A stretch of 64,000 nucleotides of DNA from the NCBI RefSeq assembly GCF_900166625.1, contig NZ_LT800499.1:2004115-2068114 (forward strand). Direction: 5' to 3'. A program made the position numbers and the translations under genes. This DNA is from Halobacillus massiliensis. Its GTDB lineage: Bacteria > Bacillota > Bacilli > Bacillales > Halobacillaceae. The notes beneath the pieces were generated by a model, which worked only from the letters and a program-made list of their open reading frames with translations, made no database searches and was not told the DNA's origin. Shown one piece after another: positions 20,380 to 47,596 of the stretch (position 1 is the first letter of the stretch; each line of letters begins with the position of its first letter).

Positions 20380-20464
20380 GAAGCTGAAATTAATAGAGAT
20401 TTGTCGTTAGCTTTAAAGGTTAGTATATCCAAATTAATCTAACAAAATACTAAAGCGGATGACT

Positions 20465-20649
20465 GCAGGGGGAGAGTCTACATAATGTAGCGCCGAAGGA
20501 GCAAGCAATTTATTGTGAATCTCTCAGGCAAAGCAGACCTCTGCAGGACGCAGCTCTGGAGAGTGTTTATGTAATAATAAACCACCCAAGAAGCAAGTGC
20601 TGTCTGCTCGGCAGTGTGAAACTTTCTGGTTAATGGACAGAGACTCCTA
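20465..20649 (+). ncRNA. Tandem glycine riboswitch
   Basis: Two glycine aptamers are arranged in series. The first runs from GGGGAGAGTC through GCGCCGAAGGAGCAA to CTCTCAGGCAAAGCAGA. The second begins at CTCTGGAGAGTG, contains ACCACCCAAGAAGCAAG, and ends at TTTCTGG...GGACAGAGACTCC. These are the hallmarks of the glycine riboswitch upstream of gcvT in Bacillus. Glycine binding to both aptamers is known to turn on the cleavage operon. The 3' strand of the second aptamer forms the left arm of a terminator, so ligand binding would prevent termination. Confidence 0.95.
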
Positions 20650-20705: not shown

Positions 20706-21806
20706 ATGGCAGATTTAAAGCGAACCCCTCTTTTTGATGAATATCAAAAACAAGGGGCTAAAACAATTGATTTTGGCGGATGGGACCTGCCTGTGCAGTT
20801 TACGAGTATTAAGAAAGAACATGAAGCTACACGGAACGAGGCGGGACTCTTTGATGTTTCTCATATGGGAGAAGTGCTGGTAGAGGGAGAAAACAGTCTT
20901 CCTTTCCTGCAAAAAGTGCTGACAAATGATGTCTCCAAACTGGAAAGAGGAAAAGCTCAGTATACGATTATGTGCTATGAAGACGGAGGCACAGTAGATG
21001 ACCTTATCGTGTATATGCTTGATGTCGATAAATACCTGCTTGTCGTAAATGCCGCCAACCGTGAGAAGGACGTCGAGTGGCTGAAATCTCAACAGGAGGG
21101 AAATGTTTCCATTACCGATGTTTCAGATGAGTATGTCCAGTTGGCGCTGCAAGGTCCGCACGCTGAAAAAGCGCTTCAGCAGCTAACAGATGAAGATCTT
21201 TCATCCATTAAATTTTTCCGCTTTCTTCAGAATGTTTCTTTTAAAGATGTAAAAGATAAGGCGATCGTATCACGTACCGGCTATACTGGCGAGGACGGCT
21301 TTGAAATTTATCTGTCAAGCGGCTCAGGTCCAGCGCTATGGCAAGCTATTTTAAAAGCAGGAGAACAATATGGTGTCCAGCCGATTGGTCTTGGAGCCAG
21401 AGACACATTGAGGTTCGAGGCTAACCTTGCGCTTTATGGTCAGGAGCTCAGTCCAGAAATTTCGCCTCTGGAAGCTGGACTTGGCTTTGCAGTTAAGCTG
21501 AACAAAGAAGCTGACTTTATCGGCAAGAAAGCCTTGAAAAAGCAAAAAGAAGAAGGATTATCCCGCAAGATCGTAGGAATTGAAATGATCGATAAAGGAA
21601 TTCCCCGTACAGGCTATCAGGTTTTTGACGGAGAAAAGGAAATTGGTTTTGTTACAACAGGCACTCAATCTCCAACATTAGGCAAGAATGTCGGTCTGGC
21701 TCTGTTGGACAAAGAATACACAGAGGTGGGTACTCAAGTAGAAGTGCAAGTCCGTAAACGTACATTACGTGCGCAAATAGTGCCGACTCCATTTTATAAA
21801 AGGTAG
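20706..21806 (+). CDS. gcvT: Aminomethyltransferase (glycine cleavage T protein)
   Basis: The 366-residue tetrahydrofolate-dependent enzyme takes the aminomethyl group from the lipoylated H protein and produces 5,10-methylene-THF and ammonia. Conserved segments are [24 protein letters not shown] and [12 protein letters not shown]. It is the first gene of a three-gene operon (gcvT-gcvPA-gcvPB) under glycine riboswitch control. The AAGGAGTGAG site precedes ATG 20706. The H protein gene (gcvH) is not in the window, which is normal for Bacillus. Confidence 0.97.
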
Positions 21807-43275: not shown

Positions 43276-43508
43276 GTGAGGAAACAAAAGAGCTGAACTT
43301 TGAGGAAGCGATGAAGCAGCTCGAAGATATTGTACAGAAACTGGAAACTGGTGAAGTTCCTCTAGAAAAAGCGATCCAGTATTATCAGGAGGGTATGAAG
43401 CTTTCCAAATTATGTAACGAAAAGCTGGGAAGTGTAGAGAAACAAATGCAGCAAATATTAAATGAACATGGTGAGTTTGAACCGTTCGATGTTCAGGAGG
43501 AGGAGTAG
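43272..43508 (+). CDS. xseB: Exodeoxyribonuclease VII small subunit
   Basis: The 78-residue helical protein has the family pattern [20 protein letters not shown] and the closing [14 protein letters not shown]. Start overlaps the xseA stop (ATGA) and its stop overlaps the ispA start by one base. Confidence 0.96.
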
Positions 43509-44389
43509 TGGGATCGTTAGAAAAGTTTGTGGAGAAGAATAAAATCCTTATTAATGACTACCTCGAGATGTATATTCAGGAATATACAAGAGAAGGTCGT
43601 CTTAGGGAAGCGATGCTTTACTCCATTAGAGCTGGTGGAAAGAGGCTTCGGCCTATTCTTGTTCTTGCCGGCCTGGAAGCTTTTGATGAAGACATAGCCA
43701 AAGGGATATCGACGGCGTGTGCTTTAGAAATGATCCATACTTATTCCCTTATTCATGATGATCTGCCAGCAATGGATGACGATGACTTGAGAAGAGGCCT
43801 GCCGACAAACCACAAAAAGTTTGATGAAGCAACTGCGATTTTAGCAGGAGATGCTCTGCTTACTTTGAGTTTTCAAGTTCTTTCTGATGATCCTCTGCTC
43901 TCCGATCGTGAAAAGGTATATTTAATAAATCAACTTTCAAGGGCCAGTGGACCTAAAGGTATGGTTAACGGCCAGATGCTTGATATGGAAAGTGAAAATA
44001 GCAGGATCAGTCTTGAAGAACTCGAATATGTTCATAATAATAAAACAGGACAGCTTTTGAGGTTCGCCGTACTTGCCGGCAGCTATTTAGGTGGTGCGGT
44101 TGAACAAGAACGTACTGAAATGCTGAAGATGGCAAAAGCACTCGGGCTTATTTTTCAAATTCAGGACGATATTTTGGATGTAACTGGGGATGCAGAGGCG
44201 ATTGGAAAACCGGTCGGAAGTGATGTTTCCAATAAGAAGAGCACATATCCTAAACTGCTCGGGCTGGATGGGGCTGTTGAACAGAAGGAGCGCTATGTTC
44301 ATATTGCCAAGCAGGCTTTACAAAATGCAGCTGTGGAAGACTCACTTCTCTCTGAACTTATAGATTATTTAAGTCAGAGAAGCAACTGA
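43508..44389 (+). CDS. ispA: Farnesyl diphosphate synthase (geranyltranstransferase)
   Basis: The 293-residue prenyltransferase condenses isopentenyl diphosphate with allylic diphosphates. Its first aspartate-rich motif is DDLPAMDDDDLRRG and the second is QDDILD, with GGKRLRP upstream. GTG start after GGAGGAGG. It is immediately upstream of the OLE RNA, and dxs of the same isoprenoid pathway lies beyond oapA. Confidence 0.96.
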   Translation: MGSLEKFVEKNKILINDYLEMYIQEYTREGRLREAMLYSIRAGGKRLRPILVLAGLEAFDEDIAKGISTACALEMIHTYSLIHDDLPAMDDDDLRRGLPTNHKKFDEATAILAGDALLTLSFQVLSDDPLLSDREKVYLINQLSRASGPKGMVNGQMLDMESENSRISLEELEYVHNNKTGQLLRFAVLAGSYLGGAVEQERTEMLKMAKALGLIFQIQDDILDVTGDAEAIGKPVGSDVSNKKSTYPKLLGLDGAVEQKERYVHIAKQALQNAAVEDSLLSELIDYLSQRSN

Positions 44390-44410
44390 TTTATGAGAAT
44401 ACTTTATTAA

Positions 44411-44440
44411 TTGAGCACTTGAAGTGATTTATGTTATATT
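44411..44440 (+). promoter_or_regulatory. Candidate promoter of the OLE RNA
   Basis: TTGAGC (44411-44416), 18 bases, and TATATT (44435-44440) with an extended -10 TG (44432-44433). The predicted start, about 44447, coincides with the 5' end of the RNA's terminal helix. OLE RNAs are also reported to be processed from longer operon transcripts, so this promoter may not be the only source. Confidence 0.5.
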
Positions 44441-44446
44441 ATATTT

Positions 44447-45060
44447 ACAAAAGGAATGGTGCAGTATTCTAGTCGGTCCTCCGTTCCCGAAGGCGGGCCT
44501 AAAAATCCGCCGAAGGGCACATCGATGAAGTTCCTTGTGCCGGCTTGAGGCGCCCAGCCTTGGGTCGGTGCTGGGAGTTAAGGTTGCAGGGCGATCCACA
44601 AAGGCATGTGGGCGTTGACCCAGCTTCCGCGGAGGCCCATCTTTGTAAGAGATCCTCTTGCCAGAGACTCTTATGAAATGGGGTATGAACCTACATTTTA
44701 CGGGGGGACCTGTAAAAGTAGCGTAGCCTGCCTTGAGTGGTTATTGAGGGGATTATAGTCATGAACAATTCATAATTCAGATGGCCACTGAAAAATGGAT
44801 TTTGTATACTATATGAAATCAGGACTGCAAAAGAGGCTAAGGAACGGCCAAAGACTGTTGGGGAAATCCCCTAGACTGTTCATAGCACATAACTAAGGAA
44901 TTATAGTACGGACTGAGTGGTAATCTAGTCCAGCTTGCGGAAACGGAGCTGATTTGGATTTAAAGGGGAACCGCCAGAGTGGTGACGCTCGGTATCCAAA
45001 TGGGAAAACCTACTAGACCTAAGCCGTAATTTTTACCTTATTTATGACCATTCCTTTCCT
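44447..45060 (+). ncRNA. ole: OLE (Ornate Large Extremophilic) RNA
   Basis: A 700-bp gap between ispA and the oapA gene holds no open frame but a GC-rich, highly structured sequence of about 610 bases. This is the known size and genomic setting of OLE RNA. It has many conserved-looking hairpins, e.g. CCGCCGAAGGGC and AGGCGCCCAGCCTTGGGTCGG. Its ends pair perfectly: 44450-44460 with 45047-45057 (11 bp). In Halalkalibacterium halodurans OLE RNA forms a membrane-associated ribonucleoprotein with OapA and OapB and is needed for tolerance of cold, ethanol and excess magnesium. The exact 5' and 3' ends here are inferred from the terminal helix. Confidence 0.93.
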
Positions 45061-45089
45061 ACATACTATTTATTAAATTGAGGTAATGA

Positions 45090-45689
45090 ATGAATAATAA
45101 TTTAAAAAGATCAATTAAATTCAGTGTGAGTATTGCCGTTATCACTTTTGTGTTAGCGGCTATTTTTTCAATTGTGTCAAACTCGGTAATGAGTGGTGTA
45201 GCCTGGGGCATCGGCCTGATCATTGTATTTATCATTGTATTGACAGGTGTTGTTTTTGATATGCTAGGGATAGCAGCAACAGCTGCAGACGAACCGCCTT
45301 TTCATGCTATGGCCGCAGAAAAGATCCCAGGTGCCAAAGAAGCGATTATCATCGTTCGAAACGCGGACAGATTTGCAAGTTTTTGTAATGACGTAATAGG
45401 GGATATTTCTGGTATAGTAAGTGGGACGGCGTCTGCTGTTGTCGTTATTCAATTAGCTAATGCTTTAGGGTCATCTGATGGATCCGGCGTTCAGATCACT
45501 TTATCCGTATTACTCACAAGTATAGTGGCCGCTCTCACTGTTGGGGGTAAGGCCGTAGGGAAGTTTTTTGCGATTCATTCTTCAACAAAAATAATATTTG
45601 CAACAGCACGTGTAATTGCGTGGATTGAATCTAATTTAAAGATAAGAATTTTATCGGTTTCAACCAAATCCACACGAAAAACACGATAA
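45090..45689 (+). CDS. oapA: OLE-associated protein A (OapA)
   Basis: The 199-residue membrane protein has about four hydrophobic helices (about 8-30, 36-58, 108-130 and 138-158), with a charged segment between the second and third. The membrane region carries acidic residues (VVFDMLGIAATAADEPPFHAM), a noted feature of OapA, and the C-terminus is basic. It lies directly downstream of the OLE RNA. OapA binds OLE RNA and is related to DUF21/CorC-type magnesium transport proteins in part. TTGAGGTAATGA precedes the ATG at 45090. Confidence 0.93.
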   Translation: MNNNLKRSIKFSVSIAVITFVLAAIFSIVSNSVMSGVAWGIGLIIVFIIVLTGVVFDMLGIAATAADEPPFHAMAAEKIPGAKEAIIIVRNADRFASFCNDVIGDISGIVSGTASAVVVIQLANALGSSDGSGVQITLSVLLTSIVAALTVGGKAVGKFFAIHSSTKIIFATARVIAWIESNLKIRILSVSTKSTRKTR

Positions 45690-45706
45690 TATAAGGGGGT
45701 CCATTT

Positions 45707-47596
45707 ATGGATCTGTATAAAATTAAAGATCCTTCTTTTCTTAAGGATATGTCAATTGATCAGTTAAAAGAGTTATCTAATGATGTGCGAAAGTTTCTTA
45801 TTGAAAACCTTTCCGCTACCGGCGGACATTTAGGAGCAAACCTGGGAGTTGTCGAACTGACACTTGCCCTTCATAAAGTATATGAAAGCCCTAAGGATCG
45901 TTTTTTATTTGATGTGGGTCATCAATCTTATATCCATAAGATTTTAACAGGGCGTGCAGAAAAGTTTGATACACTGAGAAAGTATAAAGGACTGTGCGGC
46001 TTTCCTAAACGTAATGAGAGCGATCATGATATTTGGGAAACAGGCCATAGCTCCACATCGCTGTCAGCAGCAATGGGTATGGCAATTGCAAGAGACTTAA
46101 ATGATGAGAAGCATTCCATTATTCCAATCATTGGAGATGGAGCGCTTACAGGCGGAATGGCGCTTGAAGCTCTCAACCATATCGGGGATGAGAAAAAAAA
46201 TGTAACCGTTATCTTAAACGATAACGAAATGTCTATAGCACGTAATGTTGGTGCGCTTCACGGAGCCCTTGGCCGGATGAGGAGCGCTGGAAAGTATCAC
46301 AGGGCCAAAGACGATTTAGAATGGCTCCTTAAACGAATTCCTGCGGTCGGCGGCAAGCTGGCACAGGCGGCAGAACGATTAAAAGACAGTATGAAGTACT
46401 TTGTAGTTCCCGGCATGTTTTTTGAAGAGCTGGGTTTTACTTATTATGGACCCGTAGACGGGCATGATTATAATGATCTATTAGAGAATTTGAATTATGC
46501 TAAGAAAACAGAAGGACCTGTTATCATTCATGTGATTACTCAGAAAGGAAAAGGGTATCACCCAGCAGAATCCGACCTGAAAGACAAATGGCACGGAGTA
46601 GGTCCTTATAAAATTGAATCAGGTGAAAAAATTAAATCAGCTGAAGCACCACCCGCGTGGAGTGAGGTTATCAGTGAAACGCTAAGAAAAGAAGCCCGCA
46701 AAGATAAAAGAATAGTGGCGGTGACGCCTGCAATGGTGCTTGGCTCCAAACTGGAAAAGTTTCAAAAAGAGTTTCCATCAAGGCTGTTTGATGTCGGGAT
46801 AGCTGAACAGCATGCTACTACGATGTCGGCTGGACTTGCTACACAGGGGATGAAACCTTTTCTGGCAATATATTCAACATTTTTACAGCGTGGGTATGAT
46901 CAGGTCATTCACGATGTAGCACGACAAAATTTAAACGTAATGTTTGGCATTGACCGTGCGGGATTAGTTGGGGCAGACGGAGAAACACACCAGGGTGTAT
47001 TTGATGTAGCGTTTCTACGCTCCGTACCAAACATCGTTCTTATGATGCCTAAAGATGAAAATGAAGGCCAGAATATGGTTCATACAGCCGTTCATTATGA
47101 TGATGGTCCGATAGCCATTCGTTATCCACGTGGAAACGGCCTTGGTGTGAAAATGGATGATAAGCTTTCTCCAATTCCTATCGGAAGCTGGGAAGTACTA
47201 AGAGAAGGCACAGATGCAGTCATTTTAACTTTCGGGACAACGATTTCTCTAGCTTTAAAAGCCAGTGAGCAATTAAGCAAAGAGGGGTATTCTGTACGCG
47301 TAGTGAATGCAAGATTTATTAAACCAATGGATGAGGCAATGCTGCACGATATTATGAAAGAAAGCCTTCCCGTGCTGACGATCGAAGAAGCCGTGCTGCA
47401 AGGAGGATTTGGTTCAAGTATTTTAGAATTTAAATCTGACCACAACTATATTTCAATCGTGAAGCGCCTTGGGATTCCTGATCGGTTTATTGAGCACGGA
47501 ACCGTAGACAAGCTTCTTGAAGAAATCGGGCTAACCGAAGATACCGTGGTAAAAGAAATTAAAAATATGACAATGATGAAACAGCAGAGGGCATAG
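45707..47596 (+). CDS. dxs: 1-deoxy-D-xylulose-5-phosphate synthase
   Basis: The 629-residue thiamine-diphosphate enzyme makes the first intermediate of the MEP isoprenoid pathway. Conserved blocks are [33 protein letters not shown], the ThDP motif [16 protein letters not shown], and the transketolase-like [19 protein letters not shown]. It is 17 bases after oapA, so probably cotranscribed. Confidence 0.97.

Follow-up and report, generated by a model that had tools for sequence, protein, structure and literature searches.

The ole locus

The window, a stretch of 64,000 nucleotides of Halobacillus massiliensis DNA, harbors a gene for the OLE RNA together with its membrane partner and two genes that flank the pair. 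The features of the locus are listed below.

43508-44389, forward strand: ispA, farnesyl diphosphate synthase (farnesyl diphosphate synthase model), the upstream neighbor of OLE
44411-44440, forward strand: promoter-like site of ole, TTGAGC-18 nt-TATATT (consensus scan)
44440-45067, forward strand: OLE RNA gene, RF01071 (cmscan, Rfam 15), with the RNA likely at about 44447-45060
45090-45689, forward strand: oapA, an open reading frame for the 199-aa membrane partner of OLE, downstream of the RNA
45707-47596, forward strand: dxs (TIGR00204, 945.6 bits), the downstream neighbor

An earlier, sequence-only reading had placed an OLE RNA between ispA and oapA, and this assignment holds, with an Rfam match across the whole span and both neighbors correctly named. 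The same reading called the adjacent gene a clear oapA. Its product finds no match in Pfam at E 0.001 and none in NCBIfam, and its resemblance to CNNM proteins lies below threshold (18.1 bits against a cut-off of 28.4, E 0.0023), as has been described for OapA (PMC11332333). Although no family model scores above cut-off, the call is borne out by this CNNM-like score and by relatives of the gene. A protein search with OapA returned 335 relatives, the best 80 of which were kept as named loci, and every one of these 80 has the two OLE end motifs ahead of oapA. In tblastn searches over these loci ispA was found in 80 and dxs in 52. The closest oapA products among the best 80 of 335 are those of Halobacillus campisalis (86% identity) and H. 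andaensis (85%), with Thalassobacillus at 79% beside other Halobacillus. The gene starts 22 bases past the end of the OLE match and is preceded by a GAGG ribosome-binding site at 45080-45083, recognized by eye. Asp101 and Asp105 of OapA occur without exception in 81 of 81 sequences and, by their spacing, are taken as the equivalents of Asp100 and Asp104 of H. halodurans OapA, replacement of which gives the PM1 phenotype (PMC9723947).

Three observations stand apart from this description. A record named Roseburia sp. 1XD42-34 (NZ_QWLJ01000020.1, locus L065) encodes an OapA that is 72% identical and has OLE motifs upstream; this identity is in the range of Virgibacillus and Oceanobacillus, and the record may be wrongly named or contaminated. 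OapA was also considered as a defense protein and gave no PADLOC match at E 0.001. Elsewhere in the window, a tandem glycine riboswitch (RF00504; 67.9 and 40.4 bits) is found at 20459-20642, just upstream of an open reading frame at 20706-21806.

Identity and integrity of the RNA

The Rfam OLE covariance model, which had been proposed as the check on this locus, matches over its full length (model positions 1-616) when the window is scanned with the whole of Rfam by cmscan. The match scores 496.3 bits, where the gathering score is 50, and has an E-value of 1.3e-142. A scan of the whole genome returned the same interval as its single OLE match. The interval had been described as about 610 nt of non-coding, strongly structured sequence, and both parts of this description stand. 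The mechanical list of open reading frames of at least 50 aa contains one of 50 aa that falls within the match, a second, of 56 aa and on the opposite strand (44429-44599), that falls nearly within it, and a third, also on the opposite strand (45059-45235), that overlaps its last bases; none of the three looks gene-like. The folding energy is -224.4 kcal/mol, compared with a mean of -188.9 for shuffled sequences (sd 6.6, z -5.4), and none of 20 shuffles reached as low a value.

The copy was compared with an alignment of 285 distinct OLE RNAs, from 291 that were extracted from the window, 10 further genomes of the genus, the 80 named loci and 200 additional genomes. All of the bases that are at least 90% conserved among these RNAs are kept in the window copy. 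Only four of its positions are gaps in most rows: inner insertions at 44657 and 44800, and two positions at the 3' tip, where most of the extracted rows end. A few non-standard pairs are present in the cmscan alignment, every one of them within stems. The lengths of P7 (47 nt), P8 (31 nt), P9 (108 nt) and P13 (21 nt) fall in the range that the 285 RNAs cover. Judged by these lengths, with P7, P8 and P9 neither shortened nor absent and with the P13 loop in place, the RNA is of the full-length form, and not of published variants 1 or 2. We regard it as virtually certain that 44440-45067 is an intact, full-length OLE gene and an ordinary copy of a known and widespread family.

The family is indeed broadly distributed around this genome. 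OLE was found in all 11 genomes of the genus, this one included, in 225 of 397 sampled genomes of the order and in 284 of 398 sampled genomes of the phylum, the latter two scans having stricter filters under which weak copies may be lost. In keeping with the earlier statement that B. subtilis lacks OLE, none of 14 control genomes gave a match, B. subtilis being among them. A survey has counted 2,822 OLE hits in the Bacillota (PMC11332333), so that the value which had been placed on each new natural copy is real but small. In the open-licence literature we found no Halobacillus OLE RNA. As separate observations, six genomes of the phylum sample (G520, G615, G635, G585, G666 and G554) have 2-4 separate weaker matches each and no single full match, which may reflect fragmented assemblies, insertions that interrupt OLE or incomplete copies, and one genome of the order (G127) has a match at E 2e-72, far weaker than in the other listed carriers, perhaps a shortened copy or one cut by the end of a contig.

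Among the 11 genomes of the genus the window copy scores lowest, at 496.3 bits, with the highest score at 515.5. This could be read as the mark of a degraded relic that is retained through its linkage to essential genes, the more so as the genome encodes two MpfA-type proteins, described below, that could replace OLE. Such a reading is extremely improbable, given that every strongly conserved base is intact and that oapA has kept its open frame along with both aspartates.

Stems and conserved loops

The pairing of OLE is well maintained across the alignment, and several stems that are unpaired in the Rfam structure line, namely P1, P3 and P3.1, are nevertheless present. The names of the stems follow the published model as given in PMC12265935, and the coordinates were assigned in this analysis.

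44450-44460, forward strand: P1, 5' strand; 11 of 11 bases complementary to 45047-45057, four pairs covarying beyond a tree-based null
45047-45057, forward strand: P1, 3' strand of the same 11-pair stem
44475-44487, forward strand: P3.1 and P3, 5' strands (covariation)
44841-44856, forward strand: P3 and P3.1, 3' strands (covariation)
44492-44511, forward strand: P4 hairpin with A-rich loop CUAAAAAUC (cmscan pairing; conservation of the loop at least 97% across the 285 RNAs)
44531-44577, forward strand: P5 hairpin with loop GCCCA at 44552-44556 (cmscan pairing; conservation at least 97% for GCCC and at least 90% for the final A)
44596-44611, forward strand: apical P6 hairpin with loop AAGGCA at 44601-44606 (cmscan pairing; five of six loop bases at least 97% conserved)
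44931-44951, forward strand: P13 hairpin, in the OapB-binding region (cmscan pairing; loop GG..AC at least 97% conserved)

Among the 285 RNAs, 17 of the 18 Rfam helices contain at least one pair that occurs as two or more Watson-Crick types in at least five RNAs. The lone exception, 44730-44734/44833-44837, is paired in 98% of cases and is without such a change. The proportion of helix cells that are paired runs from 63%, in the poorly aligned apical part of P9, to 100%. A tree-based covariation scan over the 425 variable columns gave 34 pairs at E <= 0.1, comprising 28 of the 164 listed pairs of the Rfam structure and P3, four in P1 and two in P3.1. In P3 (44481-44487/44841-44847) all seven pairs occur as two or more Watson-Crick types, and in P3.1 (44475-44478/44853-44856) covariation exceeds the null at 44476-44855 and 44477-44854.

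Domain 2 is the part of OLE without cryo-EM resolution, and none of the 34 pairs is a new contact within it. This absence is weak evidence, because all but 28 of the 164 listed pairs likewise fell short of E <= 0.1, some of the 164 lying in columns that were excluded as gapped or invariant.

For the P3 stem, a crossing of the membrane has been proposed in print, and its length was considered as a test of a membrane span. The 5' side of P3 is 15 or 16 nt long in 281 of the 285 RNAs while its bases vary, and the lengths of P7, P8 and P9 are widely spread. The length of P3 is consistent with the membrane idea but does not single it out, since P4, P5, P6, P10 and the strands of P12 are about equally fixed, or more so, and since the 3' side of P3 itself is more variable (sd 1.3; 13-19 nt in 283 of 285 RNAs, with a minimum of 2).

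Expression and transcript ends

The ole gene probably has a promoter of its own. A scan of 43400-45800 is by itself at chance level, with seven sites against 5.6 expected, and the case for the site at 44411-44440 comes from its relatives. In 73 of 80 relatives the 75 nt that precede the OLE 5' motif contain a site with at least 9 of 12 consensus bases, compared with 19.6% of base-shuffled upstream regions. The distance from this site to the motif is 17 nt in the window and 17-21 nt in the 12 relatives with positions listed. The boundaries first drawn from the sequence, 44447-45060, lie inside the Rfam match and agree with the likely ends of the transcript, as judged from the end of the -10-like box at 44440 and from the P1 stem. 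No terminator-like site was found between OLE and oapA, the two that were detected being one inside OLE and one inside oapA, and therefore the 3' end would be made by processing. For ole of H. halodurans, an own promoter, transcription as part of an operon and processing have all been described (PMC9723947).

Since OLE immediately precedes oapA and no terminator-like site separates the two, the interval might instead act mainly in cis as an oapA leader, with the free RNA as a by-product. We consider this very improbable. Conservation and covariation extend along the whole 600 nt, the ends of the RNA close on themselves, and oapA has its own ribosome-binding site. Moreover, OLE has been reported as an abundant RNA of about 630 nt in H. 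halodurans (PMC9723947).

Partner proteins

The genes for three further partners of OLE, OapB, OapC and bS21, are all present in this genome. The OapB gene is an open reading frame of 111 aa, the best match of which is the solved structure PDB 7k9b (OLE-associated protein B; E 4e-32), and its neighbors are presumably map and infA. The OapC/YbxF gene has its best matches in PDB 3v7e and 4lck (L7Ae-like protein, YbxF) and is flanked by what we take to be rpoC and rpsL. A single gene encodes bS21. Across OLE carriers, OapB has been reported in about 60% and OapC in about 45% (PMC11332333). The OapB site on OLE consists of P12.2 and P13 (PMC9723947).

OLE and the MpfA-type proteins

MpfA and related CNNM proteins are Mg2+ exporters, and an overlapping function of OapA/OLE and MpfA has been proposed (PMC11332333). 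OapA resembles this group in its sub-threshold CNNM score, and the CNNM model matches weakly (E 2e-4 to 1e-3) just downstream of OLE, at the place of oapA, in 6 of the 11 genus genomes. OapA differs in having neither CBS nor CorC_HlyC and thus does not show the MpfA architecture (CNNM, CBS, CBS, CorC_HlyC). Two other proteins, encoded elsewhere in this OLE-bearing genome, do combine CNNM, CBS and CorC_HlyC, as judged by domain architecture.

L092, 1474-2751, forward strand: MpfA-type CNNM gene
L093, 817-2037, reverse strand: MpfA-type CNNM gene

The full architecture was checked for these two proteins only. At least two CNNM matches above cut-off are found in each of the 11 genus genomes. For the order, the count of CNNM matches took in the same 397 genomes, with a threshold of E <= 1e-15 and up to eight candidates scored per genome; the CNNM domain alone is looser than the published definition of MpfA. 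The 225 OLE carriers have a median of 2 and a mean of 2.01, whereas the 172 non-carriers have a median of 3 and a mean of 3.25, with one or none in just two of them (Mann-Whitney p 2e-23, uncorrected for relatedness). All 12 genomes that are without a strong CNNM match are OLE carriers. On these counts the published anticorrelation between OLE and MpfA is reproduced in direction, and within this order the two as a rule coexist: 146 of the 225 carriers have two or more CNNM matches, and the relation is therefore graded and not one of exclusion. This is a modest addition to the published picture, and a caution that within this order the anticorrelation amounts to a shift in number. In this genome, the two MpfA-type proteins could make the OLE particle partly redundant for Mg2+ export.

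The P9 palindrome and dimerization

In cryo-EM structures OLE forms dimers, in which the two RNAs touch through the A-rich loop of P4, through the loops of P5 and P6 and through a symmetric loop of P9 (PMC12286853, PMC12265935). The P5 loop is reported to pair in trans with the P6 loop (PMC12265935), and in the window the GGC of the P6 loop complements the GCC of the P5 loop. In the OLE of C. acetobutylicum, P9 contributes four trans pairs (nucleotides 315-318) by cryo-EM, and switches of the P9 core from GGCC to GAUC or AGCU have been described (PMC12286853). The corresponding element of the window copy holds six bases.

44782-44787, forward strand: UGGCCA, a six-base palindrome in the apical loop of P9 and a candidate kissing-loop dimer contact (sequence and covariation)

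By alignment columns, the P9 core has four letters in 267 of the 285 RNAs. It is palindromic in 259 of these (255 GGCC and 4 AGCU) and non-palindromic in 8, and GAUC was not seen among the 267. Read without gaps, a palindromic core is present in 260 RNAs, and the two bases that flank it are complementary in 202 of them, as U-A in 124, G-C in 58, A-U in 13 and C-G in 7. The remaining flanks are G-U in 11 RNAs and form no standard pair in 47. A simple shuffle of the flanks gives a mean of 103 complementary cases and a maximum of 127 in 2000 trials. In a tree simulation in which the two flanks evolve independently the mean is 71 (sd 44) and the maximum 197, so that none of 2000 runs reaches the 202 observed. 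At the next position outward only 73 of the 202 are complementary, and therefore the palindrome stops at six bases. These patterns suggest that the P9 loops of two OLE RNAs are joined by a kissing helix of six pairs.

The same covariation would arise if the flanks formed an extra intramolecular pair that closes a GGCC tetraloop, without any contact between two RNAs. The shape of the loop bears on this alternative, with the proviso that shuffles within each shape ignore relatedness. In 73 of the 260 loops the six bases directly adjoin the stem, which such a pair would only lengthen, and the excess is clear there too (48 of 73; shuffle mean 20.4, maximum 31). The excess persists, however, away from the stem. 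Loops whose six bases are separated from the stem on either side have complementary flanks in 30 of 35 cases (mean of the shuffles 13.7, maximum 23); loops of the 1+6 shape, which is that of the window, have them in 112 of 137 (mean 76.7, maximum 92), although a bulge would still allow a closing pair here; and loops of other shapes have them in 12 of 15 (mean 4.4, maximum 11). The four core bases, moreover, are paired in trans by cryo-EM (PMC12286853). An intramolecular closing pair is possible, above all in the 73 stem-abutting loops, but as an account of the covariation we find it rather less than probable. Co-folding of two P9 hairpins returned an extended duplex, the program being one that cannot represent kissing loops. 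The kissing helix of six pairs is a modest addition to the known contact of four bases.

Mechanism and significance

The RNA described here belongs with the OLE RNAs of H. halodurans, the model species, and of C. acetobutylicum and C. botulinum, known from cryo-EM. It shares with them the whole consensus of RF01071, the order of ole and oapA, the loops of the dimer contact and, in its genome, the genes for the three further partners. Nothing in it goes beyond the range of the family, the one point of difference being the UGGCCA of its P9 against the four trans pairs in C. acetobutylicum (PMC12286853). The GOLLD and ROOL RNAs are likewise large, ornate bacterial RNAs that form homo-oligomers with kissing loops, but they are unrelated in sequence and structure and build nanocages in place of a dimer (PMC12286853); neither has an Rfam match within the window.

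Starting from what is observed here, namely the identity and intactness of the RNA, its conserved pairing and the presence of the partner genes, we propose the following mechanism, which in full we consider likely. An OLE RNA of about 614 nt would be made, probably both under a promoter of its own and as part of an ispA-ole-oapA-dxs transcript, and its ends would be closed by P1. Two such RNAs would join through their A-rich P4 loops, their P5 and P6 loops and the six-base palindrome of P9. The RNA would bind OapA in the membrane, along with OapB, OapC and bS21, and the resulting particle would help the cell to withstand cold, alcohol and an excess of Mg2+ and to manage on poor carbon sources. 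For expression, processing, the dimer, the location in the membrane and the role in stress, we infer these steps from the OLE of H. halodurans and of clostridia.

From the comparative data we would go further and suggest that, throughout the Bacillota, P9 may form a self-complementary kissing helix of six pairs (UGGCCA, GGGCCC, AGGCCU or CGGCCG, switching as a unit), beyond the four pairs known from a single clostridial RNA, and that the Halobacillus particle may work beside its two MpfA-type exporters without replacing them. For this joint proposal we see the chances as evenly balanced.

OLE ranks with the largest of the bacterial RNAs that have no known biochemical function, and a crossing of the membrane has been proposed for it. 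The copy in the window is typical, and therefore by itself changes little. If the reading of P9 is true, it offers a direct test in vivo of the importance of dimerization, because the four palindromes should be interchangeable and broken ones should not. In this way the comparison around a single ordinary copy leads, through the P9 palindrome, to a concrete and cheap test of OLE dimerization.
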